NCBI GenBank assembly: GCA_963855995.1
Contig: OY979716.1
Span: forward strand, 42,287,854-42,351,853
Origin: Muricea muricata
Lineage: Eukaryota > Cnidaria > Anthozoa > Malacalcyonacea > Plexauridae
Direction of reading: 5' to 3'
Length of the DNA: 64,000 bases
The notes under the pieces are model-generated. The model worked only from the letters and a program-made list of their open reading frames with translations, had not been told where the DNA came from and searched no databases. Positions 6,821-46,395 of the stretch are shown in pieces; positions within the stretch are counted from its first letter, which is position 1; every line of letters starts with the position of its first letter. The position numbers were made by a program, and so were the translations under genes.

Positions 6821-6999
6821 TATGGGGCACCAAATGTGACATAAAGATTTGTAACATGTAAAGCACCAAATATATTTTTAAAGTCTCAACAATTTATATA
6901 AGGTGAAAATATTATATGTAAAGTCAATTTGATTTATATAAAGCAAAAATAATATGTAAAGTGTATATAAGTGTATAAATATATAAAGTCATGGGCACT
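6821..6999 (+). repeat. Left TIR of the integrase-HECT transposon
   Basis: Aligns to the reverse complement of 46187-46395. Shared blocks include CCAAATGTGACATAAAGA, TAAAGCACCAAATATATTT, GTCAATTTGATTTATATAA and GTCATGGGCACTAA, with an indel-rich AT segment before the last block. The 6-bp duplication GCTTTC precedes it. Confidence 0.88.
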
Positions 7000-8917
7000 A
7001 AATAGCTCGGGGTATGGTCGGCACAAGTCGGACCAGGGTCGGTATAAGAACAATATGGCGATGGAACACAGTGAGAATTTGGAAGATTTTTTAAGGAATG
7101 TATCAACACAACTAGAAGAGGCAAGCAGGAATCTTCACTCTGACAATGCAAATGTTCTTGAGTTTATTCAACGTCGTCTTGAAGATAGCATTTTGGTGTT
7201 AAATGTTCTTGTTTTGCAGTGCCCTGACTTTCAAAATATGGACGAATGCATGACACTGCTAAGGCGTTTGATTTCTGACGTGCAGCAAATGCATGGACGG
7301 TATGACGATCTTACTTCCCAGTCGAGAATGCAAAGTGAATACAGGTTCTTTTGTCCCAGAGAAAACAATATTAGAGGACGTCCGAGATATGCAATTCCAA
7401 ATAACATCATTTCTGGATTGCATCGAATTCATCGGAGCTGGCAGCAGGCATCTAACGATATTGGAGTAAGTCACCGCACTCTTCTCAGGCGGCGTCACGA
7501 AAATGGAATGGATGTAAATAGCACCGGGTGCCCACGAAGAAGTTACAGTAATATAAACAACGATCAACTCTGCCAGCAAGTTTGTCACATTCTTCAGATT
7601 CTACCCAATGCGGGCGAAACCTTTGTGTTGGGAGCTCTACGCCAACGAGGGATACATGTACAGCGATACCGGGTGTGGGAAGCAATTCGGTTGGTTGACC
7701 CACTTAGTCGAGCAATGAGACGGTCTGTTGCTGTACTTAGACGTGTTTATAATGTTCCATGCCCTAATGCATTGTGGTAAGTGTTATCGAGCTACGTCGG
7801 GGGGCGCGCCTTACATAGATACCTTAGCATGCTCTTTTCCACTTAATACAGGTATGAAGAGTCATGGTGACAAATTTTGAATTTTATTAAAGTTCTGGAA
7901 TTATTTAATTTTAGGCACATCGATGGTCACCATAAGTTGATTCGGTGGCGCTTGGTGACACATGGTGGCATTGATGGATTTAGCCGGTGTATTGTTTATC
8001 TGAAGTGTTCATCAAACAATTGTGCATCTACAGTTCTTGATCTATTTACTGATGCTGTAGAAAGGTTTGGGCTACCCTCGAGAGTTCGGGCTGACTTAGG
8101 AACAGAAAATGTTGATGTGGCTTGCTATATGTTGCAGCATCCACATCGTGGGACTAATAGAGGGAGTTTTATCACAGGAAAAAGGACTCATAATCAAAGG
8201 ATTGAGAGGTTATGGGCTGATCTTAGAAGGGTGGTTATCAGATACTACGTGCACCTTTTTCATCACCTAGAAAGGTCAGGTGTGCTGGATGTTCTTGATG
8301 AGAAATGTTTGTTTGCACTTCATTTAGTATTTATTCCCAGGATTAACAGGGCCCTTGATGAGTTTTCAGCTGACTGGAACAACCACTCATTGAACACGGA
8401 AAATAAATGCTCACCCCTTTCTGTATGGCACACTGGGGTGATGAGAAGCTTTGATTCTGGATATAGTGCTATTGAAAGCTTACTGATGGGTAATGAGTGG
8501 AATGATTATGGAGTAGGTGGTGATGGACCTTCATCAGAGCCGGATTCTGATAATGCTGTTCAAGTACCTGAGGTTGAATTCAATTTGGATGATGAGCAAC
8601 AACAGCAATTGTATGATATGATTAAAGGGCCTATACAGCCATTTTCTTTTATTTCATCATCTTATAGATCGCAGCACGGTGAGTTTGGTGCTGCAAAAAT
8701 TTTTTCGATACGATTATTCCTTGCGAAGTTATGCAGGGTTGAAGTAATGAAAATTAGGCATTTTGCGACACCATGTTTGCCCATTGTCTGAGACTGGGGC
8801 GAGAGGTGCTGTGACATAAACACTGGAACGGAAGTAAACACAACAAGAAATGGCATTATGTAAATTATAGGGCACACACAGCAGTTTCGAATTACTCTCA
8901 CATTTTGTTCGACAAAG

Positions 8918-9665
8918 ATGCCTGAAAGATGTGTTGCGCCTTGTGGCAGGCTGCAGCAACACGAGAAATTTAGACGAAGGTATTTCGCTTCACACAATAT
9001 CTTTTTATGGCGACGAACGGCCAGAAGCGAAGAAAAGGAGGAAAAAGTGGGTTAGTTTTGTGAAACAAAAACGTGCAAAATGGGAACCAACACGACACTC
9101 GGGAATATGTTCGAAGCATTTTAAAGATACCGACTTTTCGCAGATTCAGCAAAGTCAAGGAAAAAGATGGTTAAACTCTGATGAACTCGGAGTTTCAGTT
9201 TATAAAGTGAAAGTTTACCTTTGATTAACACTTATAGAAATTCACAAGGTCCTTTCATCACATCCACATACAGTGGTAATGGTGATATCATCTGGGCTAA
9301 ATTCAGAAGCTTTTTGAGCCATGTTGTCAACAAACACAAAAATTTGGATGACCCTTTGTTTGATAAATGTGCTCATGGAGAAATTGAACCCAGAAGATGG
9401 TTAAAATCTGGTGAGTCTAAAATAGTAAAGAACTGAGAAACATCAAGGTGCAGTGCATAGCAACTTAATGGGTTAATTATGTACCTGTAAAATATCTGTT
9501 TTGTCAAGGTACTGCTGTTCATGACCGGTTATGTGCTGAGCTCAACAAGAAAAGTTTGGTTTCTGGCATAAAGAAGATATCACCCCTAGCCCAAACAAGT
9601 TGCTTAGAAGCCTGGCACTCAGTGTTGAACCACTTCTGCCCAAAGATGCTGGCTTTTTCATTTTC
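8918..9665 (+). pseudogene. Kolobok-1 THAP transposase remnant, catalytic core deleted
   Basis: A THAP-type zinc finger is visible: MPERCVA at 8918 followed, after a frame change near 8935, by AGCSNT, KWVSFVKQKRAKW and SGICSKHF (8946-9130). The next pieces, DPLFDKCAHGE and RRWLKSGE (9348-9410) then SCLEAWHSVLNHFCPK (9595-9645), match the C-terminal part of the Kolobok-2 transposase (FHKCAHG, WLKPGSSAH, NLEVYHSLLLKYAPK). The central DDE core seen in Kolobok-2 is absent, so this copy carries an internal deletion and would need a transposase from elsewhere. Homology by direct comparison inside this window makes the call firm. Confidence 0.78.
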
Positions 9666-9691
9666 TGAGATGTATTGCAGGTAGATCTGTG

Positions 9692-9840
9692 TAATGTAGC
9701 CCAATTCTTGTTGTTGTTTCGGTGGTGCATAGAGATCAGCGCATGTATTATCTGTATTACATAATACCATTGCATAATACAGATAATATATGCACTGATT
9801 TCTGTATGTTACTGAAACCACAGTCAAAATTGGGCTACCT
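9692..9840. repeat. Imperfect hairpin (about 150 bp)
   Basis: GTAGCCCAATTCTTG at the left end pairs with AAAATTGGGCTACC at the right, and the interior TGTATTATCTGTATTA pairs with AATACAGATAATATATGC. It lies in Kolobok-1 downstream of the transposase remnant and may be a small MITE or a folded spacer. Confidence 0.6.
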
Positions 9841-10448
9841 AGGGGCAGATATGTCATTTTTTAAAAGTTACGTACCTGCCCCAAAGCCCAAACAACTATC
9901 TCATGGAAATTGAGAGAGAGTAATCTAATTGTCTGAGCAAAATTAGAGATCAAACGTAAACATTGAACAAAAAATTGATTTTTAAGCATTTTGTTGGAAA
10001 AGTAATATCAAGAATGATGATTGTTTTGCTACTCACTATCAAGAAACAGATAGCAAGTAGAGTAGCCAATCAAATTACAGCATTTCTAATAGTATGATTC
10101 TACTGAAATTGAAAAATGTATGTATGGACTAATATGACAATAGGATATGTGAGAAAACAAAATATGTTTATAAGTAACACATTTTCACTCAAAATGTTCC
10201 ACCAACTGCACCAGGTAAGCAAAACTGTATGAGCATCAATGTTACCCAGTGTGCTCCAAACTTTACAAATGCAAAAATTTTGAACTTTTTAAGGGCAGAG
10301 CTTATTATTAAATTCATGGGCTAATGAAAACATTGTAAGCTATTTGAAATACAATCGAAGTTATGCTAAAGGTAATGCCATTAGAATGATCTAAATGTTT
10401 TTCTTTTTAGTGTCACATGTAGCAAACATTGTAGCAAACAAAGACTCC

Positions 10449-10533
10449 AAGAGCTGCACCAAAATGTAGAGTCTGTAACAATCCGATGAAGGGTCACAAA
10501 AATGTTGCATCATGTCCCAAAAACCAGAAATAA
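10449..10533 (+). pseudogene. Zinc-knuckle tail, probably Kolobok-1 transposase C-terminus
   Basis: A short in-frame stretch reads KCRVCNNPMKGHKNVASCPK and stops at 10531-10533. The spacing Cys-x2-Cys-x6-His-x5-Cys is a zinc-knuckle-like pattern. It lies downstream of the transposase remnant on the same strand, so it may be that protein's last exon; the link is inference. Confidence 0.4.
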
Positions 10534-10634
10534 TAATTATAAATACAGTTATATAACTGTATATCACTCCACAACTAGGTAACATCTCTATCTAACTTTT
10601 TCACACTTGAACTGAAGCCATTACTACTTGTAAT

Positions 10635-10853
10635 ATGATATGGTGGAGGTGTAATTGCGGTAATAAAGACAACATTTTTAATTCATCATTGTTATCAATA
10701 AAGAGCATGAAAGAGCATGAAAGAGTAAAAGACCTTACTGACAACCATATTATCAAATTTTATGTTAGATATGTTGATAACACATTAGTCGTAGCCAAAT
10801 CGTCTTGGAAGAGTTTATTGATAACAATGAATAAAAAATTTCTCTTTATTTAA
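10635..10853 (+). pseudogene. Penelope-like reverse transcriptase fragment
   Basis: A 72-residue ORF contains IKFYVRYVDNTLVVAK, which corresponds to the RT catalytic box of Penelope-like elements (normally YVDD; here the second Asp is Asn). No other RT block is visible around it. It lies in Kolobok-1 between the zinc-knuckle tail and the P2X7-tail gene. A second Penelope remnant occurs at 18.2-19.6 kb. Confidence 0.6.
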
Positions 10854-10956
10854 AGTTATTGCTGTTGTATATTTTGAAGAGCCTAGCTTGTGACATTACT
10901 CAAAAGTTAAGGATTGTAAATTTAACATGTTAATTAATAGTCTTCAACAGAATTAT

Positions 10957-12244
10957 TTAGTCTTCATCTAGTTCAAATCCTGTGTAGCTTTCATCTTTCT
11001 CTGCAGGAAACTTCTTTCTAATGAGGATATATGCGCATGATGGCAAAGGTTTTCTGACTTTTCCCATTATTCCATAAACAAGCCTACAGAACTCTCTGTA
11101 TGAAACACTTCATAAGAACCTAAAATGAATAATAATTATAGTCACTGAAATAGCAATGCAACAAATTAAAATGAGAAAACATACATTAGAAAAGATATCT
11201 ACATAAACCAGATTATCTTAAATCTGGAAAATGTTGCCAACCGTGGTGGTATCTTGTGGCCATACACATACCTAACTAGAATTTGGTTATAGCATAGGGG
11301 CAGGTTTTATCAAACTTGTTTTATATTTTCAACTTTTCCAAAATTAAAGCTGAATGCTTTTGGTACAACCAGCTTCAATACAGGGAATGGGAGATAGGGC
11401 CAATGAGTTGAAATTTCCATGTCCATGCAGGTCACATTACAAATCTCATTAATACCATTATCCCAATCACACAGGGAGTCAATTGGTTTTCCAGTCAATA
11501 AGAAAGCAGGCAGAATGTTGCACTGCTGAGGGCCCTACTTTCTATTTGCAATACAGCAGTTATAGTATACCTTTCTTCTGATTCCATTTGAGTATATTTT
11601 CCCTTAGTTGTGGTCTTGTAGTGTGAAGATGCCATTCTTAGACTCCACTTTTCAAGACGAGGCAAATCCTGGATGATCTGTAATGCATTGGAGTTTTGTT
11701 TCTTCTCCAATATCTTTCTTAACTAGAGCACTATTTAACTCCTCCACACAGCCTTCTTGCTCTTGGCAACAGTAGCACTCGTTAGGATTTTGAAGAAGGC
11801 TCGTGTTACAATTTCCACATGTACACCTACAAGTTAGGGTGTAAAAAGATTAGGTATCAACTACACATGCTAAACAATGCCACATGGCAGGTGTGTATCG
11901 GCTTCTGCATTATGCTGATTTACGCTGTCATGTTTATATTACAGTATATTAAAAAGCATTACCATTCACTGACTGGTATTGATCCATTTAAATGATGCGC
12001 AAGCATTTCATCTAAATTCCTCTGCCATTTCAGCTTCGTACCTAGGAGTCCATTCTTCGTCTGCAATCGGATCATTTTGGTATGCATATTCTTCTTCGCT
12101 ACTAGACAAATACTCGCTTAAATATTTGCCGACTTTACTTTGGTCCATGTTTTCCATGAGTTCCTCCTCCATTTCTTGCTCAAAATCAGAACATCCTGAA
12201 TTCTCAGACTTAGAAATTACTTCGGAGCTTGACGAAGAACTCAT
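10957..12244 (-). pseudogene. Kolobok-1 acidic/P2X7-tail accessory protein
   Basis: Exon 1 (12244-12042) encodes a Ser- and Glu-rich acidic N-terminus ending DEEWTP, with a donor reading CTCCTAG/GTACG. A matching acceptor before 11826 joins it in frame to a Cys-rich exon with CTCGNC, ECYCCQE and CITDHPGF. The last part (about 11100-10957) reads YGIMGKVRKPLPSC and IRKKFPAE then a YTGFELDED end. These are hallmarks of the P2X7 receptor cytoplasmic-tail domain, a zinc-binding fold also found in transposon proteins. A frame change follows CITDHPGF. No transmembrane segment is present, so it is not a channel. Kolobok-2 has the same gene at 14076-15027. Confidence 0.7.
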
Positions 12245-12770
12245 TTTATTGAATTATAACGTTTTAAGGCAAACGTTTGCTCCGTCAAATGAACGTAAGT
12301 GAGCTTGTATCTGCAGTTGTAACATAAAACCAAAAATAAAACATATGAGTGTCCTGATCAACATGGGTTCCGGTTGTGACGTCACAAGCCAAAGTGTCAT
12401 GGCGGCAAAATTGAACACGCGTGGCAAAAAGTCAAATGATAATAACTTCACAAGGAATAATCGTATCAAAAAAATTTTTGCTGCACTAAACTCACCGTGT
12501 TGCGATCTATAAAGTAATAAAATAAACAAAGATGGCTGCATTGGCCCTTTAACCCACTTCAAGATGATAAAAACCATGCTTGTGAACTTTATTGTCACAC
12601 TCTTAACATTATTAACCAAATGGAAGGCATAGAATAACAAAAACAGAGTAAAATTTTAGGATAACTTTAATTTCAACCTAAAATGCCCTTGTCACAAAAT
12701 GGTAAGTTTAAAACATTTCTCTAATAACGGAGCATATTATAATGCTTAATAAATAATGGTAATTGCACTG

Positions 12771-12894
12771 AGTGGAGTGCAATTTGGTCTGAAATCAAAC
12801 GCGTGATTACAAAATCGCACGACCGCGAAGCGGGAGTGCGATTTGTAATCACAAGTTTGATTTCAGACCAAAATTGCATGACACGAAGTGCAAT
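12771..12894. repeat. Long palindrome with about 50-bp arms
   Basis: GGTCTGAAATCAAAC and GTGATTACAAA on the left pair with TTTGTAATCAC and GTTTGATTTCAGACC on the right around a short GC-rich loop (ACCGCGAAGCGGGAG). The outer arms carry GTGCAATT. It resembles a foldback MITE and abuts the next element. Confidence 0.75.
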
Positions 12895-12898
12895 TTCC

Positions 12899-13613
12899 AC
12901 TTTATTACATTCACTTTGAAATCTAAAACAAGACACACCTCCCGCCTTCCTTCCCGTTCTTCTTCGGCGCGGTAGCATAGCAACAAGCGAACAAAATCGA
13001 AGGACATATTTGTACAGGTATTTAACAAATGGAGAAGATAATGAACTTGTTTGTGCATAAATTCTTGGCCAAAGGAATAGCAAGGTTAGTTTAAACATTC
13101 TATCAGCTTTATTCGCGATTTAACAGGATTTAACAACGGATTTTTGAGCTAAAACATATTAAATTTATCTGGACTTACTTGTCGCTGCCATATTGCATTT
13201 TGAGCTTGTACTAGTTATTCAATGTTATTCACAAAGGTTTTATTTCTGTAATGTGTAGCATCGTTTGATTTGTTTGGCAACTTAGCTAGTGTTTTATCTG
13301 TTTTTCAGTGCTTGTGTACTAGCCTTTGACTGCCTGAGAAAATAGTTTAGGTGATATGAAATTTGTTTATTTTGCTCTTTTGTCACCGTGATCAGATGTT
13401 TTTAAAATTTATTTGGTAAATTGAATGCATGCAGTTTGATTTGTTTTGTTGGCTAGACTCGGCAGCCATATGCAATTGGGACCAAAAAAGATGCGATTAA
13501 TGAGCAGTTCTTTAATCGCACCCAAAATGATGCGATTTGGGGATTAATCGCACTATTTTTGACCAATCAGAATGCTGGAAATACCATTGATTTCAAAATG
13601 AATGTAATAAAGG
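12899..13613. mobile_element. Non-autonomous element with 24-bp TIR
   Basis: CTTTATTACATTCACTTTG at the left is the inverse of CAAAATGAATGTAATAAAG at the right. There is no supported coding sequence. Near the right end, GATGCGATT and ATTAATCGCA repeat in both directions. No clear target duplication was found, so the ends are approximate. Confidence 0.5.
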
Positions 13614-14075
13614 ACAATATCAACTAAAATGTAGAGGCAGCAATTTTCATGCCATCAAAAATAGTAGAATTGCAAAACTGCAAAGTAAACAAATGTCCCC
13701 ATTGCAATGAGGTCCCTTCTGCACATCTAATACACATTTACATAGCATTGGCATGTTTGTCTATATTTTGGCTTTAAAGGAGTAGTCAAGGTTCATGACA
13801 ACTTGCACTTATATCAAACTAAATAACATTCTTACCTCTCTCCCAAAGTTTGAAAATTCAAAGTTACATAGAATAAGAGATATTCAACAAGAAACATACG
13901 AACACAAGCACATTCTACAATTGCCATTTTGGACGTCGTAGCGAACCCGCGATCATGCAGCGGTAATGCACCGTGACATCACTGTGCGCTTTGCAATGCA
14001 TCGCATGCATGTGAGATAGAGTTCAAATTGTGCAAGGCTGGTGAAAATATTACATAAAATTGTAAAGAAAGTACA

Positions 14076-15027
14076 ATGAGCGTCAATGGCGATTCGTCAA
14101 ATGAACGGTCATCTAGCTATACAAATTCAGACTCCGAAGATAGCGATGAAGCATGTTTGAAATGTTTCGACGGAGAAATTCAGCCATACGCTTTCGAACC
14201 CGTTGATGATACACTTTCTGATACTGACACTGATGGGGAAATAGATATGGAGGTTGAAGAATCATCAGAAGATTCCGACGACGAAAATCGCCTTCAAAAC
14301 AAAGACTGGTTAGTTTAAATGCTAAAACCAAGTTTTTCTTGAAATAATATGTCATTTTGACGTTTAGTGTTCAAAGTAAAGTACAATTATAGAGTACCTG
14401 GCCACATACGGTTTGGCCAGGTATTCTATAAGTAGTCCAAATGTTCTATGATTCAAGTGAACTTGATCACAGAATATATTGTGTAGTCAAGCTTTTTTAG
14501 AGCACTTCAATCAAGCTACGGAGACCAGAGATATCATTATCAAGACATTAAATTTTCCCCCATTTGCATTTTGTCTATCATAATCCCACACTTCATGATT
14601 GTTTCCTAGGTGTTTGTGTTCACATTGCCAAATTATGGATAGGGTTGAAGAAAGTGTTTGCTGTCAGGAAATCACAGACGTTAAATGGAAAAATGAAGAG
14701 GTAGCCCAAGTTGAGCAGATAAAAATTCCAGGCTGTATCACTGACAATCCAGGATTTCAAGCTGTGTGTCTAAATCAGTGGGTATTACAGGCTGCGTGGA
14801 GTCAGTACCGTCAAGAATATGGCACAAGAGCATATGAAGGGCCTGAACACAAAAACAAAAGGCATGTAGCCTATAGACAAATGGTTAGATGGTGTTGGGG
14901 TGTACTGGGCAAAGATATACGAGTACCTTTGCCTTCCTGTGCTGTATCTTGTATTCGAGCACACTTTCCACCCCCAGGATTAGAAGAAGATTTTGAATTT
15001 GATGGATTTAAGTTTGCTGATGAATGA
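14076..15027 (+). CDS. Kolobok-2 acidic/P2X7-tail accessory protein (two exons)
   Basis: Exon 1 (14076-14308) gives MSVNGDSSNERSS and a Ser/Asp/Glu-rich acidic region ending NKDW. Donor AAAGACTG/GTTAG and acceptor TTTCCTAG/GTGTTTG (exon 2 from 14610) join in frame as a Trp codon followed by CLCSHC. Exon 2 carries CCQEI, GCITDNPGFQAVC, AYRQMVRWCWGVLG and PLPSCAVSCIRAHFPPP, the conserved Cys and aromatic positions of the P2X7 tail domain. It ends with a DGFKFADE-type C-terminus like its Kolobok-1 homologue. The role is unknown; a zinc-binding adaptor with an acidic arm is plausible. No lesion is seen in these exons, unlike the transposase. Confidence 0.75.
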
Positions 15028-15052
15028 CAGTATTTATATATTTATATGTTTC

Positions 15053-15198
15053 CAGTGGCGAAGCCAGCCTGACATTTGGTCACGCAAATACAAATTTTTC
15101 TGTGTTTATAGACCGTATAAGGAATCAATTTTTAAAGAAATGAATAATGATTTAAATTTGCATAGCATGACCAAATTGTCGGGCTGGCTTCGCTACTG
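15053..15198. mobile_element. hAT-type MITE, 146 bp
   Basis: Terminal inverted repeats CAGTGGCGAAGCCAGCC / GGCTGGCTTCGCTACTG are flanked by an exact 8-bp duplication TATGTTTC (15045-15052, 15199-15206). The 8-bp duplication and CAGTGG end are typical of hAT MITEs. Confidence 0.9.
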
Positions 15199-15488
15199 TA
15201 TGTTTCGTCTCGATATTTTACTTTATCATGTAATTAAAATGAATACAATGCTCAGTTCAACTGCATGCACAACCAAATGTTTTGACACTCTAGTCTAGTG
15301 TCTTGTCTAGGAGTGATCAAAAGTCAAACTCTGACTTCTTATACACTTGAGGGATGATGTCATCTGCTTACAAGATGTCAACTGCGTACATCTTGTTGAA
15401 GTAACAATCCATCTACAGGTGTTCCAATCCAGCTGTTAAGATGGCACGCTGTTATTGTGTCGTCAGATAATTTACCCTTTGATTGATT

Positions 15489-15602
15489 AATTAGATTACG
15501 AGCTCGAGATTATGCTCGAGATTTCTATGCGGTGATAGTTGATTCGGCCTTCACCCTCATCAACTATCACCGCATAGAAATCTTGAGCTCATAATCTAAT
15601 TG
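15489..15602. repeat. Foldback palindrome
   Basis: Left arm AATTAGATTACGAGCTC to TTCTATGCGGTGATAGTTG mirrors the right arm CAACTATCACCGCATAGAA to CATAATCTAATT, with a 10-bp insertion in the left arm. It sits next to the stop of the Kolobok-2 transposase. A partial relative is at 414-465. Confidence 0.8.
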
Positions 15603-17811
15603 TTAATTACTGAACTTTTTTGGCCATTCTTGATTTGTGCTTGCTTATTATTTCATCTTTGCTTGGTAGAGGAAATGATGCAATGTTCTTGGGGATAGTT
15701 GCAGGCTGAGTTGGTTGTGTTTTCTTGGCATTGTCCTTATTTTCATGAATTTCTTTCATCAGCTCTTGCACAAAGGAGTAAGACTTTTTTCCATAATGGG
15801 TTTTGCAACCCACTTCTTCTTCCCCTTGGGAAACACAACATTGTAGCGTTTTGCTCCCTTGTTTTCTCCCCTTTTCACCTGTGCCTGCTGCCTCTTCACA
15901 TTAGAGTTAAGATCAATAACTGCCAGTTGGGTTCTTGCAATCATTCCTTTGTAAGAGAAATGCTGGCATTTGGGGGCATACTTGAGAAGCAAGGAATGGT
16001 AGACCTCGAGATTTCCAGTGTGGTGAAATTCGGTCAATTTGCTGATGTCCTTCAGTAGCTTCTTATTTGTGACCACTTCTTCCAGGGCAATGTGAGCAGA
16101 TGATCCAGGTTTGAGCCACTGTGTCTTCCTCACTTTCGATCTTGATAACTTGCCATGAGCACACTTGTGAAACATTTTTCCTGTTTCTTTTCGCCATTTG
16201 TGCTTGTTCACAACATGCTGGAGAATGGATAACCACTTCTCTTCAATGGATCACCATTGCAGGTTTGTGCACTCCACAACAAATGGTGTGAAACAGCTTG
16301 GATCCATTTGGTAAGTTCTTCATTTCCCTTCTTCTTTGCCTTTTTACACAACTTTTTGGTGAACCATTTGGAAAGGTGCCAAACATCGTATTGGTGTATA
16401 ATGTTGGGGTACTTCTTTCGCAGCTCAGAAGTTATTTGTATGTGCCGATCAGTTGTGAGGGACCTGATTTTTATTTTTTTTCTCAGTAAATGGTTGAGGG
16501 ATCTTTGGCAACCTTCATTTTCCATGGCATTTGAAGATGACACCTCTGCAACATGCACTAAAGAAAAATCAACAATTTTTTCTGAATTTTCATCCATGAG
16601 GGAATATGTTCCATATTTGGCATTGTGTCCAGGGCTATCTGACCGACCATCTCCACAAAGATCAATTGCTTCACCTTGTTTTTTGATTTCTTGAAGCACA
16701 GCCTTTTGCTGTTTCTCATAACTCTTGTTGATGGTTGGAAATATAAGCTTATCTTGGACTTTGTAAAATTAATCTTTGTTTACAAAGTTCATGTTGAGTG
16801 CCTGGGAAATTTGCTTAGTAGCTTCATATGTACCACCAGTAAAAACAATTGCAGATGGAATTAAAATATTTCCTGCTGGCTTCTTATGCAATTCAGGTTG
16901 GGGTTTCCATTTAAAACTGTGATTGTTGCAACAGACTGTTTTAATTGTTACCATACTACCTGTGTGAGTCTTTTGTATTTCACAAAGAGATCCACATTCT
17001 TTGCAAGAAATAAATAATTGATCCAGCATCGATTCAAACACAATAAACTTTCTTTCATTCACCAATGTTTGAACATCTTTATCACTATTTTCACCTGATT
17101 CTAAATAAACATATTGTTCATCAAAACTCAAATCATCTTCACCAGCATAGTCATCATCATCATCATTCACATCAAGCCCATCAATATCATCAGGAATATC
17201 ATCATCTTGCCCAATCTGTTCAATGTTCTGCTGCTCTTCCACTTCTCTACTAAATAATTTTTTTGGTTCCACTCTTGACTCTTTGCAGGCTCTGACTGGT
17301 GTTTGGCAGATTGTCTTGTGGCTTTGTTTTGACTTACGCTTTTGTTTTCTTGATTTCCTTTGGGCCAAGGTTTGAGCTTCAGCATCATTATAAATTATGT
17401 TATCACACATTGTGGCTTTATTTTGTGTAATCTCAATGTCATCGGGAATATGCCCAACATTCACATCTTTAGTCATGTTATACTCAAGTAATTTGGCTAT
17501 TTCCTATGAATTGATCCAAAGAACAGTAAATATATTTAAGTAGGCTTTACAGCAATGGTTGGAAAAGAAGCCTGCTGGGGGACAGACATAGATTTATCTG
17601 GGAGGGGGTCCCCCCAAGCAGCAGCACACCTACCAGATTGAGCATAGCCCTAGCATGCTAACCAGTTTTAAGATAGGTGTTGGAGTAGTACCAATTTGCT
17701 TGAATACCGTAATCTCTCTATTTGCCCCCCCCCTCAAATAAGCCGCCTCTCTCATATGCCCCTCCCTTTTTTGAGTGAAAAAATGAAATAAGCCCCCCTC
17801 TCTAATAACCC

Positions 17812-18189
<378 letters not shown>

Positions 18190-18249
18190 AGGAATAAAAA
18201 TAAAACCATATATATGAAGAAAGTGCTCAATACCGAAGTAGAGCGGAAT

Positions 18250-18786
18250 AGACAATGAAATAGACTTTGGTTACTTCATAAAGTTTTATTCACAACAAAT
18301 CTGTTTTCGTATGACAAGCAATGCTTGCCACACTCGTCAGGTGATGATCGCGTCTGATGTTATGATCTAGGGAAACTTGATATGTATGTTACAATTGACG
18401 TGTTAAAGCCAATTGCATGAGCGCTTTAATTAAAAGTTGGCGAGTAAATGTTTCTTACGATGTCTGCAAGCGCTTATTAGTTCGTTCCTTGAATTTAGGG
18501 TACCTAGCTCTGGATGACAAATAATAAGAAATTTTTCATGCAAGCACAAATTACATCTCTTTGAGCTACTCTTGTAAGCTTTACACCGTTTTATGACTCT
18601 CCATTTTATGGAGAATTTGATGTCGTTATCTTTTAAGTCCCAAATGTACTTGCTGAGGGAAGTGCTGTTTTTGTGTTTGGCTTTCCGGAAAGTGTTGTTG
18701 TGGTTATTGTACCGCAATTTGAAAGGGCCTTCTGTTATGCCGATGTAGGATTGAATCTCCTTGTTGTCTTGTCTTTCGATCACATG
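18250..18786 (-). pseudogene. Penelope-like element 3' end, inverted copy (GIY-YIG)
   Basis: The ORF on minus (to 18430) encodes the GIY-YIG endonuclease half: SYIGITEGPFKLRYNNH, then CNLCLHEKFLI and SRNELISACRHRKKHLL. It is almost identical, including its 3' untranslated region (18250-18420), to the plus-strand copy at 19075-19610. The two copies face head-to-head near 18787. This copy is truncated at the 5' side of the GIY-YIG domain. Confidence 0.88.
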
Positions 18787-19606
18787 GTACAACCCACCAT
18801 TTAATTCAAACGTTTCCACAAATGTGGGACAAAGATTTCTGAAAATAGTTGCCGAGTGTTTCCCTCCTCATCATACCCTACATAAAATTTTCAACAAAAA
18901 TACCTTAAAAATAAGCTACAGTTCTATGCCGAACGTTTCCAGTATCATCACAGCACACAACAAACGCCTACTAAGAAATGAAACATATTCAGCAACCACC
19001 GCTACTTGCAACTGCCGAAAGTCAGTAACATGCCCACTAAACGGAAAATGCCAACAAGAGGGAGTCGTGTACCAGGCCGTGATCGAAAGACAAGACAACA
19101 AGGAGATTCAATCCTACATCGGCATAACAGAAGGCCCTTTCAAATTGCGGTACAATAACCACAACAACACTTTCCGGAAAGCCAAACACAAAAACAGCAC
19201 TTCCCTCAGCAAGTACATTTGGGACTTAAAAGATAACGACATCAAATTCTCCATAAAATGGAGAGTCATAAAACGGTGTAAAGCTTACAAGAGTAGCTCA
19301 AAGAGATGTAATTTGTGCTTGCATGAAAAATTTCTTATTATTTGTCATCCAGAGCTAGGTACCCTAAATTCAAGGAACGAACTAATAAGCGCTTGCAGAC
19401 ATCGTAAGAAACATTTACTCGCCAACTTTTAATTAAAGCGCTCATGCAATTGGCTTTAACACGTCAATTGTAACATACATATCAAGTTTCCCTAGATCAT
19501 AACATCAGACGCGATCATCACCTGACGAGTGTGGCAAGCATTGCTTGTCATACGAAACAGATTTGTTGTGAATAAAACTGTATGAAGTAACCAAAGTCTA
19601 TTTCAT

Positions 19607-19610
<4 letters not shown>
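18787..19610 (+). pseudogene. Penelope-like element 3' end (linker plus GIY-YIG)
   Basis: The reading frame from about 18790 to 19432 has the post-RT linker, the Cys region CNCRKSVTCPLNGKCQ, then the GIY-YIG endonuclease (SYIGITEGPF with Arg and Glu blocks, CNLCLHEKFLIIC). The endonuclease cuts target DNA for reverse transcription in Penelope-like elements. The reverse transcriptase itself is missing, so the copy is 5'-truncated. The tail runs to the TA tract at 19610. Penelope elements often insert into TA-rich microsatellites and leave inverted partial copies, which fits. Confidence 0.88.
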
Positions 19611-19651
<41 letters not shown>

Positions 19652-20714
19652 ATGCTATATTATATGTTGTTGTTACCATATATTTATACGTTGTTATATT
19701 GTTAATATAAATGTTGTTATATGATATATACTGTGTAATGATTTTGAGTTTATTACAGTTCAAAGAGATAATCTCCATTGCTGGTTTTTTGGATGAATAA
19801 ATAAGCCCCCCTCTCCAATAAGCCCCCTCTCCAATAAGCCCCCCTCTCCAATAAGCCCCCCTCTCCAATAAGTCCCCCTCAAAAGGTCATGAAATGAATA
19901 AGCCCCCCTCAGAAAGGGGAGGGGGCTAAATAGAAAGAATACGGTAACTCTAGTTTAACCCACTATAAATATGATAGGTGTTGCTCCAGGAGATTTGCGA
20001 CATAATTATACTATATTAACAATAAAATCAAACCTGTTCGGTTTCGACTTTCTTTAACAAGTTGTTTTGTTTTTGTATCCTTGACTGCGATGACACACGT
20101 TCATTTTTTGGTTCTTGAAATGGAAATGTTGATGGCACACTTCCGACTTTTAGGCTTGTTTTCGCCTTCATTCCAAAGGATCCCATTAAAGAGCTTTCGA
20201 AACATTCCCGTGTAAAATGCATGCTGCAAACATAGCATGATTTAGCTTGAGGAGGATTGTCACGACGAATTCTATTGAACCATATTTTTCGCATTTTTTC
20301 GTCTTTAGGTAACCGGTGATATGACACAGGTATCCCTTCAGTTTTCCTCGAACCATTTGCGCATCCGGGAACCATGCAATGAGGCATGGTTCTGGTTGAT
20401 TTCACACAATTGAATATTCAAATTAGGTTTTCGAACAGTTTTTTGAATTGCTTTGAGTATGTTTGATTATAGATTTATACTTCGCGCCAAATTGCAAAGC
20501 GCGCAGTGACGTCACGGTGCATTAGCGCTGCATGATCGCGGATTCGCTACAATGTCCAAAATGGCGATTGTAAAATTTGCTTGTATTCGTATGTTTCTCG
20601 TTGAATATCTCTACTTCTATTTAACTTTGAGTTTTCAGACTTTGGGAGAGAGGTAAGCATGTTATTTAGTTTGATATAAGTGCATGTTGTCATGAACCTT
20701 GACTACTCCTTTAA

Positions 20715-21315: not shown

Positions 21316-21730
21316 TTTTTCATGATAGCTTATAGCCTACCACATCCCACTTTGCCATATCCAATTGAAATATCCATGACTTTCTTAAAAGCACCATAAT
21401 CTTCATAACAGTGGGTATTTTCAGTAAATTGAAACAGTAGTCAACTGCAGGCATAACACTACTATCATTTGTTAAAAAGGACACGCTCAACTTCTCACCC
21501 ATAGTTGGAAGAGCTGGCCACCCAGTCCAAAGCTGAAGAAGATCTTGCAGACCCTCCTGATCTTTACTCTCTGCAATACATTAAAAAGCCATATTAGAAA
21601 GAAAAACATGGTATTTATTTCATTGTAAGGCTTACTAGTTATTCAGACAAAATGTCCACACAGACTTAGTTGCCTACAAGTAAACATATTTTCAACAGTC
21701 TGGGTTTTTGTGTAATTGGCCATATGTACT

Positions 21731-24329: not shown

Positions 24330-24389
24330 AATGAAAATTATTTAAAACACTCCTCAGTACTGTACTTATTTATACTAAAGAAAAAAGTG

Positions 24390-33955: not shown

Positions 33956-33976
33956 TGAATGAATGCATACATATTT

Positions 33977-35095: not shown

Positions 35096-35149
35096 CTTTT
35101 AGCCGCTATATGAGGCATTCGCCTTTCTTGCCAAATATATAATGTACAA

Positions 35150-35250: not shown

Positions 35251-35280
35251 GTAATTATTTACAATAGTTTCTTTGGTAAA

Positions 35281-38700: not shown

Positions 38701-38734
38701 ATTCCTTTATATTGAGATGGACACGTTTCCTCCT

Positions 38735-38772
38735 TTTCGCTACCTCCTTTCGCTACCTCCTTTCGCTACCTT
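38735..38772. repeat. 13-bp tandem repeat at the polymerase N-terminus
   Basis: Three consecutive units of TTTCGCTACCTCC (plus strand; the leftmost diverges). Thirteen bases are not a multiple of three, so a unit gain or loss shifts the frame exactly where the acidic ORF stops. Confidence 0.75.
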
Positions 38773-39481: not shown

Positions 39482-39514
39482 GCACCGCCTTTTAAACCGT
39501 AGGAAATCTCACTT

Positions 39515-39660
39515 TTCATACGTCATGAAAAGTGAGTTATGAAAAGTGAGTTATTAAAAGTGAGTTTTTTCTGAAAAGTGAGTTATGAAAAGTGAGTTAT
39601 GAAAAGTGAGTTTTCCAAAGAGTTTTTGAAAAGTGAGTTACGGTAAGTAAGATTTTGAAA
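39515..39660. promoter_or_regulatory. GAAAAGTGAG array, divergent polymerase/GRF promoter
   Basis: About eight units, several as ATGAAAAGTGAGTT, lie between genes diverging at 39481 and 39717. It is the longest array in the element and the only one serving the replication gene. Confidence 0.7.
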
Positions 39661-39716
39661 GGTTTAAAACAATATAAATAAGGGCGCATTAAACTCGAAA
39701 TTGTATCGATTCCAGA

Positions 39717-40685
39717 ATGATTTGTCTACATGGTAAACCTGCTGTAATAACAACAACCGATAAAGGTACTTTCTGGTTCTGTGGAGAACCTTCCAGCTGC
39801 CATTTCATATGTCGTGAAGAGCATGCATTTTTATATGAAATAGCTATAAAAGAGTTCCTGGCAACTAAACAAGCTCGACCTGCGTGTTGTGCTATTGCAC
39901 ACGAAACTTCTGCAGAACGCCGCTATGCCAGAATCAGAGTGGTCAGGGATACAAAGAAAGCAAGTTTTGGTCGGCCTTTTTTCACATGTTCAAAAGAGAA
40001 AGACAAATGCCGCTACTTCGAGTGGGGAAATGAAATCATTGTCCCTAAACCGCTATGTAAACATGGGAAACCATGCACTGTACAGAAAGTGAAAAAAGAA
40101 GGGCCAAACCAAGGACGAAGCTTCTTATGCTGCGCTGAACCGATCAAAGAGAGCTGTAAATTTTTCAAATGGTTCGAAATGCCAAACCCGAGAGAACATG
40201 CTGACAAAGACCCCCTCGAACCAGGTTGTTATTGCCTGTTTACCAACCCGTCATCTTACCAGTATACCGTGAAAAAAACAGGGGTAAGATTTACTAGCAG
40301 AGAAACAGATCGTAAGAAAGCGTATGCCGAATTCCTTCGCTGTAATGAGAAGGTTATACCTACAATCACCCCGAAAAGACCCTTTGAAAAAATTGAAGAC
40401 AATGAGACACCACCCAACTCTCCAGCAGAAATTGATGACAACGAGACAACACCCAACTCTCAAACAGAAATTGATGACAACGAGACACCACCCAACTCTC
40501 AAACAGAAATTGATGACAACGAGGTACTACCCAACTCTCCACCAGAAAAAATTCCTGCATCCTCCTTTTTTGAAACCTTCCGAATGCCCGGCGCATGCAA
40601 AAGAGGTAACTGTGGCCACTTTGAGTGCTTCGATCAATCCAAAAAAAGAATGCGAAGTATCAGACAAGGCTCATCCCTCTTCTAA
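39717..40685 (+). CDS. GRF zinc-finger protein, 322 residues
   Basis: Three GRF-like modules: an N-terminal degenerate one (GTFWFCGE, SSCHF), then GRPFFTCSKEKDKCRYFEW and GRSFLCCAEP with CKFFKW. GRF fingers bind single-stranded nucleic acid in topoisomerase 3-alpha, NEIL3 and APE2. A tandem repeat of EIDDNETPPNSQT (four units, about 40395-40545) follows, then a Cys/His C-terminus (CKRGNCGHFECF). Divergent from the polymerase and sharing its array, it is a candidate single-strand-binding factor in replication. Intact frame. Confidence 0.8.
   Translation: MICLHGKPAVITTTDKGTFWFCGEPSSCHFICREEHAFLYEIAIKEFLATKQARPACCAIAHETSAERRYARIRVVRDTKKASFGRPFFTCSKEKDKCRYFEWGNEIIVPKPLCKHGKPCTVQKVKKEGPNQGRSFLCCAEPIKESCKFFKWFEMPNPREHADKDPLEPGCYCLFTNPSSYQYTVKKTGVRFTSRETDRKKAYAEFLRCNEKVIPTITPKRPFEKIEDNETPPNSPAEIDDNETTPNSQTEIDDNETPPNSQTEIDDNEVLPNSPPEKIPASSFFETFRMPGACKRGNCGHFECFDQSKKRMRSIRQGSSLF
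40395..40545. repeat. 39-bp coding tandem repeat in the GRF gene
   Basis: Four units, each encoding a variant of EIDDNETPPNSQT; the first opens with KIED. Length changes would stay in frame (39 bases). Confidence 0.8.
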
Positions 40686-40977
40686 AAGTTCTGATTTACC
40701 CATCACCTGTTTTGCTAAAACTTTTGAACTTAATGAAATAAAGAAACAGTATTATTACGTGTTAAGAGAAGTTCTGTTGATATTTTGTAAGTTTTATTCA
40801 ACATTTTATGAATAAAAGTTATTTAAAGTTCTGATGATATTTTGTAAGTTTCAATCAGTATTTTATGAATAAAAGTTTAAACAATATTAATGTTTTTTAT
40901 CCCTTATGTATGCATAGAAAAAGAGTTAAATAAAATCGAATCTTTTAAGAATTATTCATTTTTACCCGAATTTTTTC

Positions 40978-41062
40978 AAAAACTCACTTTTCAGAAAACC
41001 CACTTTTCATAACTTACTTTTCATAACTTACTTTTCAGAAAACTCACTTTTCAAAAAGTATA
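40978..41062. promoter_or_regulatory. GAAAAGTGAG array, inverted orientation
   Basis: Six copies read as AACTCACTTTTCA on the plus strand, ending about 45 bp before the gene at 41108. The orientation is opposite to the other arrays, so the element seems orientation-independent. Confidence 0.7.
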
Positions 41063-41107
41063 AAAACCCATGAAAAAAGCCTGTGTAAAACAAATAACAT
41101 CAGTAAT

Positions 41108-41593
41108 ATGGATGGTTTCTACTACTACTTCTCAAAAGACATATTCAGGGATGTTTATAAAGAATTTTTTAATAACCTATTACATATTTATAACAAGGAA
41201 CGGTACGTAGAATCGAAATACTTTAAAGAAGCCGCCCGAAGCCTCGTATTTAACGTATGTGAAGTAAACCCAACAAATAAGGTTGGACGCATTATCCACG
41301 AATTTTTAAAATTATTCTTTTTTGAAAAACCGGAATATAGAAAAAGCGTATATAAACAAATTAGGTACCAAATTTTACCTGTCCTTTGGAAGAATCATAA
41401 AGCAATTGAACGGAAAAAACAGAAAAAATTAACATTCCTAGCTAACGAGCTGTACAATTCAGGGCGTCACGTCGAAGCGCACATCATACGAACAGTTGTG
41501 AAACCGTACATACGTGACATGAACCGGAAGTGGGGTAAAATGACAGCCATGCAAAAATTGAAGACCGTCGAGTGGAAGCGTTACCGCACATGA
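41108..41593 (+). CDS. Unrecognised basic Polinton protein, 161 residues
   Basis: Starts MDGFYYYFSKDIFRDVYKE; rich in Lys, Arg, Tyr and Phe, helical (EAARSLVFNVCEVNP, KIIHEFLKLFFFE type blocks), and basic at the end (KWGKMTAMQKLKTVEWKRY). No family recognised. An early-type array precedes it and the right TIR follows. DNA binding is plausible from charge only. Confidence 0.5.
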   Translation: MDGFYYYFSKDIFRDVYKEFFNNLLHIYNKERYVESKYFKEAARSLVFNVCEVNPTNKVGRIIHEFLKLFFFEKPEYRKSVYKQIRYQILPVLWKNHKAIERKKQKKLTFLANELYNSGRHVEAHIIRTVVKPYIRDMNRKWGKMTAMQKLKTVEWKRYRT

Positions 41594-41667
41594 CAATAGT
41601 ATCTACCTGACCTACCCCGCCATAAGAAGAACCTACCCAGTCATAAGAAGAAAACAGAAACAAATAA

Positions 41668-41934
41668 AAACGGTTCTTTTAAGAACCACCAAATGTTGAA
41701 AAAAAGATTAAACTTATTCTGTTAATTGTGTACAATTATAAAAAGTGAGTTTTATGAAAAAGTGACTTTCCCGAAAAGTGAGTTAGAATATTAATAAGAT
41801 GGAAAAGTGAAGTTTCGACCATATGCCATAGGTAATTTAGCAGATGTGCAAGGCAATCTAGCGGATGAATAACTGTATACTTGATATAAGACAGCACAAA
41901 CGCGTTTCCGCTAGATTGCCCGCACAGTACTACT
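41668..41934 (-). repeat. Polinton right TIR
   Basis: Inverse of 21731-21945, with about 50 bp extra between the outer 120-bp block and the inner block GAACCACCAAATGTTGAAAA. The extra segment includes two or three GAAAAGTGAG-like units at 41745-41815. Confidence 0.92.
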
Positions 41935-42734
41935 TGTACTGATTTTTAAAATTAAAGAATTAAACGTGTATATACATATATATTACATTCAGATTTCATA
42001 TTCATTGTATTGTTCATTTTCATATTTATTGCTATAATAAAACACCACACTGACCTCTTTGTGACACTTCACCCAAGTATTTTTCGAAAAGCAGTTTTGC
42101 ATGAATGGTACGAACATCTTCAGCAGCACTGTACTCAATAAGTTTCTTGACATCTTGTAGGTTGATATCATCTGCTTTGGGAAAAAGAATGTTTCTAATC
42201 TGCTCATGTTCTCTTGCAAGGTCAAGCAAAGTTTGTCTGCCAAACACAACTTCAGAAGGTATCCCTTTTCGTAGGTCACCCAGCGACGGGATTCGCTTTG
42301 TGATGACTTCATTACTCAGGCAACACTCATATGCCAATTGCCTGTTTGAAGGACTAATTTGGATATGGGGGAATCCTGAAGCCACGAGAATATCAGTAAT
42401 ATTGTAGGCACTCTCGCTATCAGTAAATTTCTGCAGATCGTTGTCAGCACATGTTGTAAGCTAAAATACAGTAAGATACATTATTATATACTGAGTGTCA
42501 AAGTTCAATTATTCCTGTTTCTTATTGGTTAAGAACGTATCACGTGATAGTGGAGAAATTCTACTGTCTCCCTGGCAACGTAGCTAAGCGGTGGACATTA
42601 CTTTTATTCACCGGTAAATAACAAATCCACAGAGCCTCACGGAGCCATGTCAGGTAAAAGGTAATCCTTTTTATACATGTTTGATTGATTTGTGGTACTT
42701 TTCTTCTCTTTCGACACTCAGTATATAATAAAAT

Positions 42735-42845
42735 ACTTATTGGCTGAGACCTTGGAAAAGCAGTATGTTTTGTGGACCCTCGACGATCGACAGTCTCTGG
42801 TCCACAAAACATACTGTTTCCCTCGGTCTCAGTCAATAAGTGTTA
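42735..42845. repeat. Foldback palindrome in a HECT intron
   Basis: CTTATTGGCTGAGACC and AGTATGTTTTGTGGACC on the left pair with GGTCCACAAAACATACTG and GGTCTCAGTCAATAAG on the right around a GATCGACAG-type loop. MITE-like; no certain target duplication. Confidence 0.85.
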
Positions 42846-43779
42846 CTTGTACATAGTGATAGCAACAATTATGCACAACCAGCACAAGTTGACAACAATT
42901 GACCATAGCGAAAAAGATAGCGAAAATAAAGTATGATCCCTCAAAACGTATGTTAACAACTGACAAGCCAAGACTTGTAGCTACCATTAAATAAATTTAG
43001 GCTTGCAACAGGTCAAAATAAAATCGATATGCTGCCATTTTTTGCTGAAGTCAATTACGTAATCAACAAAAATTACACAACTACTTTAAGAATGTTTTAA
43101 ACGAATGCCCTTAACTAACTGCTTGAGGAAGGGCATTGACTCAAAATGTCAAATTCTACTTATATCATTTTTGGTATTGAAAGATCTTGTGTTTTTGTAC
43201 ATAATTAGTCACTGTGTTTTTTGTATAGAATTAGTCACTACAATACCTCGCAGAAGCTTTCCCTTAAGCAAGGATCTGGTATGTCTTCTACAGTGAGAAA
43301 TCCTAATATGGCATCTCTACTTCCTGTCAAGAGGAAGCTTTTCACAGCTGACGATAAACCAGCAATGCCCCTGCAACCATTGCCCCTTTTCCCCTTCAAA
43401 GAAACGGATGCCCTTAAAACCCCTGTTCTCTAGTTCTTTCATCAGCTCTTTGAAAAATTCTTTTGTGGGACCCCCAGCATCAACTCCTAGCTTATCTGTG
43501 CCAAAGCTCCGAAACTCCCACAGTAAGATCACAACCCAAATCGAACTTGGGGTTTTTGTATTTGTCCATAACTTGGTTGATGAAACTCTTTTCTCTTGTA
43601 ATTAAAAAATGTTCTGCAGACTGGCCTTTTTTCACTTGTCTAACAAAACATTTTAACTCATCAATGGGGTTGAGTTTGATTATTTTTGTTTCTGCTAAAG
43701 TTGAATTCCAAATATCATCATCAGATGACCCCTCTAAATAGAAAATAACAACCAAAAACTGCATTACCAATTTAAAAAT

Positions 43780-44400
43780 ATAGTTAAGGAATATAGATTA
43801 ATATTTTCCCTGTTGATTTGTATTGGTTATCACAAGAGGATCGAGGTGATACCATTAACATTTTAGGATGATATCATATTTCATCATAAGCAAGTGCAAA
43901 AACTGACATTACCAAGTCTCAAATGTGAAAACCTATTTATCACATACTTGTGCCTTTATCAGTGGCAAAAATCACATTATATTTTGAAATTATCATAATC
44001 ATTTTCCAATAAATATAAAATCATTGCAAAAAATATTTAAAACAGGCAGAACTTTACAAAAACAAACCAAAAATTACTTATCTTTTAATAGCTGCAGATA
44101 TCTTTCAGTTGTTTGCCTTGTATCATAACATATTTTCACTATTTTAATTGTTATTTCACTACTGATCCTTTAGTCGGCTGCCATCTTTGTTTGGACAGCG
44201 GGGCACAAAAAGACACCACAAGACAAAAAAATATTGCAAAACATATTATTTGCTACCCTGTTATCTCCCTGATAAAGGCACAAGCATGTGATAAACAGTT
44301 TTATCAACACAAGTGGAACTTCGAAGAAAAAATTGTGTAAAAAAACAATGCCCCTAAGGCAGAGAAGCCAGTCATTGGGTCAATGGGTTAATAGGTTTTT
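43780..44400. other. Intron-like spacer of the HECT gene
   Basis: AT-rich DNA between the HECT N-lobe exon and the CUE-like exon of the minus-strand ligase gene; no supported coding. The long gap suggests an intron. Confidence 0.4.
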
Positions 44401-46186
44401 TTTATTTACCATTTTCATCAGTTGCATTCAGGAGCTTATTAATTGCTTCTTCCAAATCTGTGGTACTAGCCTTGCCATACTCAATTGTAGGTAATTCTTT
44501 ATTTGGAAAGATTTCATGTAACTGAACTTTACACTCATCGCTTGTCAGTGGAGTACTGGTGGTAGGGAAATGGGCATGAGTTGTACCACCAATGATTGGC
44601 TGTGGACTGCTCATGGGGGTCTGAGTACTGGTGGATGGCACATCATTGGTGGTAGTAAATTGATCTCTGCCTGCAAAAAATTTGCCATTGGTGGAGGGAT
44701 ACTGTGTACTGTCATTGGTTGAGGTTGACTTTTGCTACCAGAAAACTGAGTCCTAGAGGTGGATAATTGAGCAACAGCCATGGGAAACTCAGCTCTAGTT
44801 GTGGGGTATTCAGCATTAGTTGTAGGGTATTGAGCACTAGTTGTAGGGTATTCAGCATTTAGTTGGGGAGTATTCAACACTAGTTTTAGGGTATTCAGCA
44901 TTAAGGATGGGTGACTGAACACTAGTGATAGGATGCTGGCTGCTGTCTAATAAATCTTTTTCTGGCAAAAGCCACACATTTTTTGAGAAAATAATTTTGA
45001 TAGTTTTTCACCATCAAGCTTTTTCCCCATCAGGTTTGGTTCAACAATATCATTGCCAACACCCAACATGATTTAAAACCTAAACACAAGAAATTTTTCT
45101 ATAGTTAGCTATAGTGCAAATTTGTGTGCAAATTTGATCATTTGAATACAAAATGAAAAACCAGATTTGTACTAAATTGACACCTGGGTGACAAGATACA
45201 AATGCATCAAATGATTGGCGAATTTTTTATGCAATATCTGTCTAAAAGAAGAATATATGTTTTTTCAAATGATCAAATTTGCACTATAAGAAATTTATTG
45301 CCTTCATGGCATTTGCATTTTGGCACTGGGTTTCTAATGTATCACAAATCAGATTTTTCATCCTGCGATTGTTGGTTTTCTATATTGAGAACTCAAGTTA
45401 CATCAGAGAGAGCAATTTTCCATAACAAGCTGCATTTGTTGGTGAATTAGGTCAAAAATTAACCTCCTATGTACACTTGTACAAAACCCCGGTGTAACAA
45501 GACTCTGCAAAAAAAAGGTATTTGCTCTTCTGCCCACACACATGCACGATAGACACAAAATATCACAGACAATAAAGGGGTCAATGAAGTGTGGCAGAGG
45601 GTAAAGTAAATTAGTAATACCTTGTATTTTGAAGCACGTGTTCAAAGGCTTCCCTTAGGTTTTCATACACCTTATTGCTAATTGATATTTGATCTTGAAA
45701 GAAGCACAACTTCTCGGCTATACCAACATTGGCAGCGAAAGGGTCTTGAGCTAAAGTCATTTCCTAAACGTACGCAAATACGAAACATTTTCAAGGGGGG
45801 GAAATTTTCAACAAAAAAAAATTTTCGTTTGGGTTTACTGCTTACGCGTGATTGAGCACTACGTGCACTAAAGCGGCTTGAACCAAGAATCGGGACAAAC
45901 GAAGCAACAGTACCTCCCCCGCGACCTCGTCCTCCAGTTCGAAACAAGGATTGCAGTTCGTGTTGTGGCGAAGAGAATGTTGCCCTACTCGAATCTGGCG
46001 ATGGTAACACGTTGGTTGACGCATTTACGTTTTGTCCACTGATTGATTGCTGAACTGCATCAGAGACAATTCTCCTAAAAGCAGGATGACTTACAAGATT
46101 TTCAACAACAGTTCTCAGATCCGTGTTGTTTTGTTCAGTCGCCATGATGAATAATGCATGTTAGCGTGCGCGGGAAATTGGTCAGA

Positions 46187-46395
46187 CCGTTAGTGCCCAT
46201 GACTTTATATATTTTTATCATTCATTCCATATATATTATATACAACGTTATATATTTATGTTGTTTTTGCTTTATATAAATCAAATTGACTTTACATATA
46301 ATATTTTCATCTTATATAAATTGTTGAGAGTTTACAAATATATTTGGTGCTTTACATAATGTTACAAATCTTTATGTCACATTTGGCACCCCATA
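46187..46395 (-). repeat. Right TIR of the integrase-HECT transposon
   Basis: Inverse partner of 6821-6999, ending CACCCCATA directly before the GCTTTC duplication (46396-46401). It is about 30 bp longer than the left copy because of AT-rich indels in its inner third. Confidence 0.88.

Follow-up and report, generated by a model that had tools for sequence, protein, structure and literature searches.

Why should a gene for a ubiquitin ligase lie between the inverted ends of a DNA transposon, head-on to the gene for the transposase? The question is raised by a stretch of 64,000 nucleotides (the window) from the anthozoan Muricea muricata (assembly GCA_963855995.1, contig OY979716.1, positions 42,287,854 to 42,351,853), in which an element bounded by terminal inverted repeats contains two convergent genes, one starting beside each end, that encode an integrase-type DDE transposase and a HECT ligase. 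The element is an old, interrupted and decayed copy of a DNA transposon that, judged by its sequence hallmarks, is of the known IS3EU kind, and we are confident that it represents an IS3EU-type lineage in which the transposase and the ligase are two standing, convergent genes. Because nearly all the related elements examined in this genome carry the pair, likewise head-on, the ligase seems to belong to the machinery of the transposon and not to be stray cargo.

Two convergent genes in one mobile unit

An inverted-repeat search placed the outer ends of the element (TATGGGG..CCCCATA) at positions 6821-46395, a span of 39.6 kb. The arms (6820-7001 against 46190-46396) are identical in 172 of 207 aligned columns (83%, E 4e-60) and an exact 6-bp duplication, GCTTTC, lies on both sides, much as a first-pass annotation of the window had described with its inverted ends of about 200 bp. 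Approximately 31 kb of the span consists of younger insertions, namely one Polinton and two TTAA-flanked transposons, and the four remaining pieces of the element total about 8.5 kb. A sister copy, L020, is less interrupted (7,424 bp) and aligns with the window at 93.6-96.9% identity, which falls to 87% in a single stretch of 225 bp and to 80-88% in repeat matches that overlap. None of the three nested elements (8626-12548, 13778-20710 and 21731-41934) is present in L020. At these insertions the alignment is interrupted and its adjoining parts share 4, 6 and 6 bases, so that each duplicated site is present once in L020. Since L020 stops and resumes at the insertions with single copies of the duplicated sites, the length of the unit comes to about 7.4 kb for L020 and some 8.5 kb for the window copy, in agreement with the 8 kb proposed at first. 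Three small stretches of the window are extra relative to L020 (12754-13604, about 365 bp near 42482-42847 and about 300 bp near 45577-45878). We have hardly any doubt about this anatomy, or that the two genes form a single mobile unit.

The integrase gene starts with an ATG at 7055 on the forward strand, 53 bp inward of the left arm, contains one intron and reads as an open frame of 505 amino acids once the TTAA-flanked insertion is skipped. The HECT gene starts with an ATG at 46145 on the reverse strand, 44 bp inward of the right arm, and L020 uses the same start; the first-pass annotation had correctly placed both starts beside the repeats, at distances (54 and 41 bp) that needed slight revision. 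Residues D244, D301 and E338 of the integrase are invariant across an alignment of 30 proteins. Its best Pfam family is PF24764 (Table 1), as opposed to an rve match of only 1.8e-4 (22.2 bits, under the cut-off of 32.6), and the 505-residue protein contains neither an H-H-C-C pattern nor a CxxC. With an rve-type core not its best family, the Pfam comparison does not place this integrase with those of Polintons, Ginger elements or retroviruses.

The second gene is a HECT ubiquitin ligase by its Pfam match, its cysteine and its predicted fold, and its transfer activity is accordingly a prediction. Pfam HECT matches the window read-through at 2.9e-7 (30.9 bits) and the C-lobe exon alone at 2.2e-5, and a single exon of another copy, L017, reaches 54.6 bits, where the cut-off is 23.9 bits. 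The C-lobe cysteine, earlier placed near 21450, is present, with its codon at 21434-21436 (counted by hand); the frame is broken near 21410. In L020 the CUE-HECT part is open over 713 amino acids when spliced by script. AlphaFold predicted a two-lobed HECT fold for L017 from 36 alignment rows (predicted local distance difference test, pLDDT, 84.6; predicted template modelling score, pTM, 0.79), while an earlier model from 6 rows was poor (pLDDT 41). When the L017 model was compared with the PDB, all 50 matches listed by each program were HECT ligases, and a profile search of the PDB returned 22 distinct sequences, all annotated as HECT ligases; a phmmer search of the PDB with the Acropora protein P0121 alone gave no match.

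The CUE label of the first-pass annotation holds only in part. Pfam CUE stays under the cut-off in the window (0.052) and in P0121 (0.013), passes it in the sister sequence P0123 (5.3e-5, 23.2 bits against 21.1), and at E <= 0.1 has no match in L017, L012, L025 or L013, of which the L013 open reading frame (ORF) stops short of that part. The first 40 residues of the L017 model form three helices predicted with good confidence, an arrangement typical of CUE or UBA domains. In the subfamily of the window, the ligase is predicted to carry a small CUE-type ubiquitin-binding domain. A protein database search with the full HECT read-through found no match; with the CUE-HECT part as query three proteins matched, of 7,483 candidates scored: P0121 from Acropora (708 amino acids); P0122, a fragment on a contig of 1.5 kb; and P0123, whose sequence recurs unchanged within L027, another copy in the same genome.

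Recurrence of the pair across the genome

In order to determine whether the pairing extends beyond the window, we examined integrase loci throughout the genome, which comprises 74 contigs and 453 Mb. The search gave 1,177 integrase candidates, of which 150 were scored and listed, all over the curated cut-off, and 32 of these were sampled by score and type, not at random: 20 loci whose match begins at profile position 9-13, like that of the window, the top 8 rows by score together with the 6 kb downstream of each, and the last 4 rows of the list with 5 kb downstream, which were held out from profile training. Some of the fetched stretches contain runs of N. In 31 of the 32 loci, the integrase is followed by HECT sequence on the other strand. 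Plain tblastn matched parts of the HECT in 16 of the first 20 loci (in L025 only the N-terminal exon); with an iterated profile, HECT was detected in 26 of 28 loci, now including L013, L015, L024 and, in part, the HECT stretch of L025. The HECT of L029 was seen by tblastn, and the profile detected HECT in all four held-out rows. Orientation was uniform: every one of 79 HECT ORFs in the 28-locus profile scan (7 of them from the window), and all 12 ORFs listed at E <= 0.01 in the held-out rows, run opposite to the integrase. As controls, 732 ORFs from 55 kb of window sequence that excludes the pieces of the element, and 8,672 ORFs that had been shuffled or reversed, gave no match to the profile.

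In 15 of 28 loci a complete element of 4.8-9.2 kb was recognized by its TATG ends and the exact 6-bp duplication around them, in a scan that itself required a 6-bp match and TA ends. A HECT C-lobe is carried by 13 of the 15; a general lack of the HECT gene from such copies is what the first-pass annotation had named as evidence against its proposal. The 40-kb span of the window and its nested insertions might suggest an accidental pairing, in which a host HECT gene was struck by an IS3EU-like end or by a neighbouring element. However, L020-L022 hold the same genes within the same ends (7.4-8.6 kb) with differing 6-bp duplications, and we attach next to no weight to such an accident. A chance neighbour or a host HECT gene is refuted by these sister copies together with the convergent orientation.

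A genome-wide search with the HECT of the window returned 100 matches in 50 clusters. A listed integrase lies within 10 kb of 18 clusters, where about 0.3 would be expected by chance; all 18 are convergent, again unlike a fixed host gene, and 9 of them are loci outside the 32-locus sample.

Conservation and candidate role of the ligase

The catalytic cysteine of the C-lobe is kept in 25 of the 26 alignment rows that have a residue there, the window included. Nonsynonymous (dN) and synonymous (dS) differences were listed for pairs with dS of 0.03-1.6 in either gene. Between L012 and L017, which belong to different subfamilies, HECT has a dN of 0.22 with saturated dS (differences by codon position 0.26, 0.16 and 0.55) and the integrase a dN of 0.19 with a dS of 1.58; for L012/L025 the HECT dN/dS is 0.09. 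An excess of silent-site changes is clear for some HECT pairs, those between subfamilies L012/L013 and L017/L025. Within subfamilies the integrase ratio ranges from 0.14 to 1.73. Tree distances of integrase and HECT correlate (r 0.74 for 27 loci and r 0.43 for 16 representatives), and no permutation reached either value; rows with fewer than 120 aligned residues were to be excluded, and no printed row is that short.

Several observations weigh against the ligase as a regular, functional component of these elements. The first tblastn pass left L013, L015 and L024 without HECT and L025 with its first exon alone. No listed integrase lies within 10 kb of 32 of the 50 HECT clusters, two of which come from the HECT gene of the window, itself divided by insertions; these clusters give no verdict, because merely 150 of the 1,177 integrase candidates are listed. 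L005 is a complete 4.8-kb element that has the N-terminal domain only and no HECT domain, L025 lacks the C-lobe, and L016 has a serine in place of the catalytic cysteine. The HECT copy of the window is broken, with several frame breaks and a deletion of about 85 bp relative to L020, while the integrase frame beside it is open apart from the insertion. Two distant HECT pairs at dS near 1.5 have dN/dS of 0.42 and 0.53; within subfamilies HECT values of 0.44-0.85 are near neutral decay, and one pair (148 codons) gives 3.0. Third positions hold 0.41 of the differences in HECT and 0.44 in the integrase among 15 representatives, where one third would mean no constraint; the HECT value fits near-saturation and is not strong by itself. 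The two trees conflict in places (L028, L004/L006). Three sponge contigs with a related integrase show no HECT, but are too short to tell. Finally, all genomic evidence comes from one genome and from loci selected as described above.

Gene capture by transposons occurs, and a captured host gene travelling as a passenger without function would agree with the broken HECT of the window and the near-neutral decay within subfamilies. It would sit poorly with the silent-site excess between subfamilies, with the retained cysteine and with the presence of HECT across deeply diverged integrases, and we judge it very improbable. Recurrence across deeply diverged subfamilies also makes "cargo", as the ligase was first called, too weak a term.

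If the ligase is part of the machinery of the element, its action could be pictured as follows. Each inverted end would contain a TATA-type promoter driving the adjacent gene inward; each end probably drives one gene, because both genes start just inside the ends and both terminal inverted repeats share a TATATAAAG box in their inner part (recognized by eye). By the general scheme of DDE families, the transposase would bind the ends, excise the element and paste it with a 6-bp stagger. The ligase would act in trans in the same cell: an E2 enzyme would hand it ubiquitin, which its C-lobe cysteine would relay to a substrate.

Where that ubiquitin goes is the point on which explanations diverge. 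The ligase might ubiquitinate the integrase or the strand-transfer complex, thereby limiting copy number or clearing the complex for repair. This is the main rival explanation: the genes travel together and their trees correlate, as expected of proteins that touch. A tight protein pair would resist the conflicts seen between the trees, and L005 and L025 do without an intact ligase; we consider such a target doubtful. Host DNA-repair proteins could also be the target, which would bias repair of the excision gap in favour of the element. Cut-and-paste elements do need host repair, and we regard this possibility as unlikely. Most probably the ligase modifies, in trans, those proteins of the host that restrict transposition (fungal IS3EU elements, for comparison, can carry TET/JBP and alpha-kinase genes), and as its most likely substrate we tentatively propose the host proteins that silence transposons. 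If the ligase does serve the element, protein ubiquitination joins the means by which cut-and-paste transposons act on their hosts; because both the enzyme and its cysteine are specified, the role of transposon second genes becomes a testable question. It would also serve as a warning that some expanded animal HECT families may be transposon genes.

Surrounding elements and known systems

The features of the element and of its nested insertions are collected in Table 1.

Table 1. Coordinates of the IS3EU-type element and the insertions within it (window positions)
Feature	Position	Strand	Details
Target-site duplication, left	6815-6820		GCTTTC, exact match to 46396-46401
Left terminal inverted repeat	6821-7001	+	TATGGGG start; TATATAAAG box at inner end (box by eye)
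Integrase exon 1	7055-7776	+	Open frame, GT donor
Integrase exon 2, first part	7915-8625	+	DDE core D244, D301, E338; Pfam PF24764 2e-72
TTAA-flanked transposon within integrase exon 2	8626-12548		TTAA at 8622-8625 and 12549-12552; inverted arms 111 bp, 87%
Integrase exon 2, end and stop	12553-12637	+	505-aa frame stays open
About 850 bp without counterpart in L020	12754-13604		From comparison with L020
TTAA-flanked transposon with THAP ORF and Mutator-like DDE ORF	13778-20710		227-bp arms; THAP 4.5e-17, Mutator 2.5e-6
HECT last exon (C-lobe)	21330-21570	-	Pfam HECT 2.2e-5; splice positions inferred from L020
Polinton within last HECT intron	21731-41934		TGTACT at 21725-21730 and 41935-41940; inverted arms; Pfam rve, DNA_pol_B_2
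HECT middle exon	42055-42460	-	Profile E 2.3e-37; 91-93% to sister copies
HECT N-lobe exon	43247-43733	-	Frame break near 43500; deletion of about 85 bp near 43383
Linker with 21-bp repeats and CUE-like domain exon	44410-45069	-	Frame broken in places
HECT gene N-terminal coding stretch	45681-46145	-	Open frame from ATG 46145; 3' boundary approximate
Right terminal inverted repeat	46190-46395	-	Pairs with left arm
Target-site duplication, right	46396-46401		GCTTTC

The nested Polinton has its PolB split over two ORFs, a weak match to an adenovirus-type protease (0.0008, under the cut-off), collagen-like ORFs recognized by eye, and 15-bp AAAAGTGAGTTTTTG tandem repeats near 24383, 35133 and 39528. 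The second TTAA-flanked transposon, which we take to be Kolobok-like, encloses a near-perfect inverted repeat at 18248-19613 (99.6% over 536 bp); its ORF presumably resembles a Penelope GIY-YIG endonuclease, and Pfam assigns it no family at E <= 0.001. Outside the element, an open frame of 537 amino acids at 47593-49206 matches the Mutator-like transposase PF20700 (2.4e-70), and helicase-like ORFs at 53456-55023 (DEAD 7e-12 on the first, RecQ by eye) adjoin inverted repeats at 52143-53444. Inverted arms of 722 bp, 98% alike, bound positions 55513-59937 and enclose ORFs with THAP and HTH_Tnp_4 and with SWIM and YqaJ/alkaline-exonuclease domains, presumably an element of the ISL2EU type.

Relatives of the integrase are widespread among the 120 matches listed of 1,440 in a protein search, with octocorals, hydrozoans, fish, a beetle, a nemertean, a gastropod, amphioxus and an arbuscular fungus among the named sources. 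The viral contigs scanned contain no relative of the integrase or of HECT, and the related integrases in the prokaryote genome contigs scanned are confined to the three sponge contigs mentioned above, taken as sponge-host contaminants. Contigs L001-L003, with an IS3EU-like integrase and filed under a metagenome-assembled genome of a Cycloclasticus symbiont, are probably sponge-host DNA.

The Polinton/Maverick elements, one of which is inserted here, resemble the element in having a DDE integrase, inverted ends and a 6-bp duplication. They differ in that the Polinton integrase matches rve (3.5e-13) with no PF24764 at E <= 0.001, and in having DNA polymerase B. Cellular HECT ligases such as HUWE1, Smurf1, AREL1 and UBR5 share with the transposon proteins the two-lobed fold, the C-lobe cysteine and a GxDxGGxxREFF-like stretch in the N-lobe; identity is 14-19% across 50 PDB rows, and here the ligase is encoded inside a transposon. 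P0121 of Acropora cervicornis, with its CUE-like segment under the cut-off, branches with L026/L031 among the transposon HECTs (FastTree support 0.93) and may itself derive from an IS3EU element.

The first-pass annotation knew of no described superfamily defined by this pair. A new superfamily is ruled out because the ends, the 6-bp duplication and the transposase all fit IS3EU, for which PMC10045372 gives as marks TA..TA ends, 6-bp duplications and an integrase-like DDE transposase without the HHCC motif; the element has TA..TA termini, a 6-bp duplication and a DDE core without HHCC, which agrees with IS3EU/GingerRoot. The words HECT and ubiquitin have no occurrence in the main text of that paper. 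A literature search of 5.39 million papers, whose coverage excluded Repbase and the GingerRoot paper, found no paper combining IS3EU and HECT. As far as the searched literature shows, what is new is that a HECT gene accompanies the IS3EU transposase as a regular second gene, and the pairing may already be recorded in either of those two sources.

The closest parallel is found in the IS3EU elements of rust fungi that carry TET. According to PMC12730594, these have TAYGG..CCRTA ends and 6-bp duplications, with an alpha-kinase gene opposite to the transposase and a TET/JBP dioxygenase between them; this demethylase has been proposed to aid in escaping silencing. The likeness to the element of the window lies in the ends, the 6-bp duplications and a second gene opposite to the transposase; the difference is that the second gene is an alpha-kinase, and neither HECT nor ubiquitin occurs in the main text. 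It seems possible, if somewhat short of probable, that HECT is an ancestral standing second gene of animal IS3EU, kept for disarming host silencing or repair like the kinase and demethylase of the fungal elements, in which case many "host" HECT genes of corals and other animals, P0121 among them, would be transposon genes.

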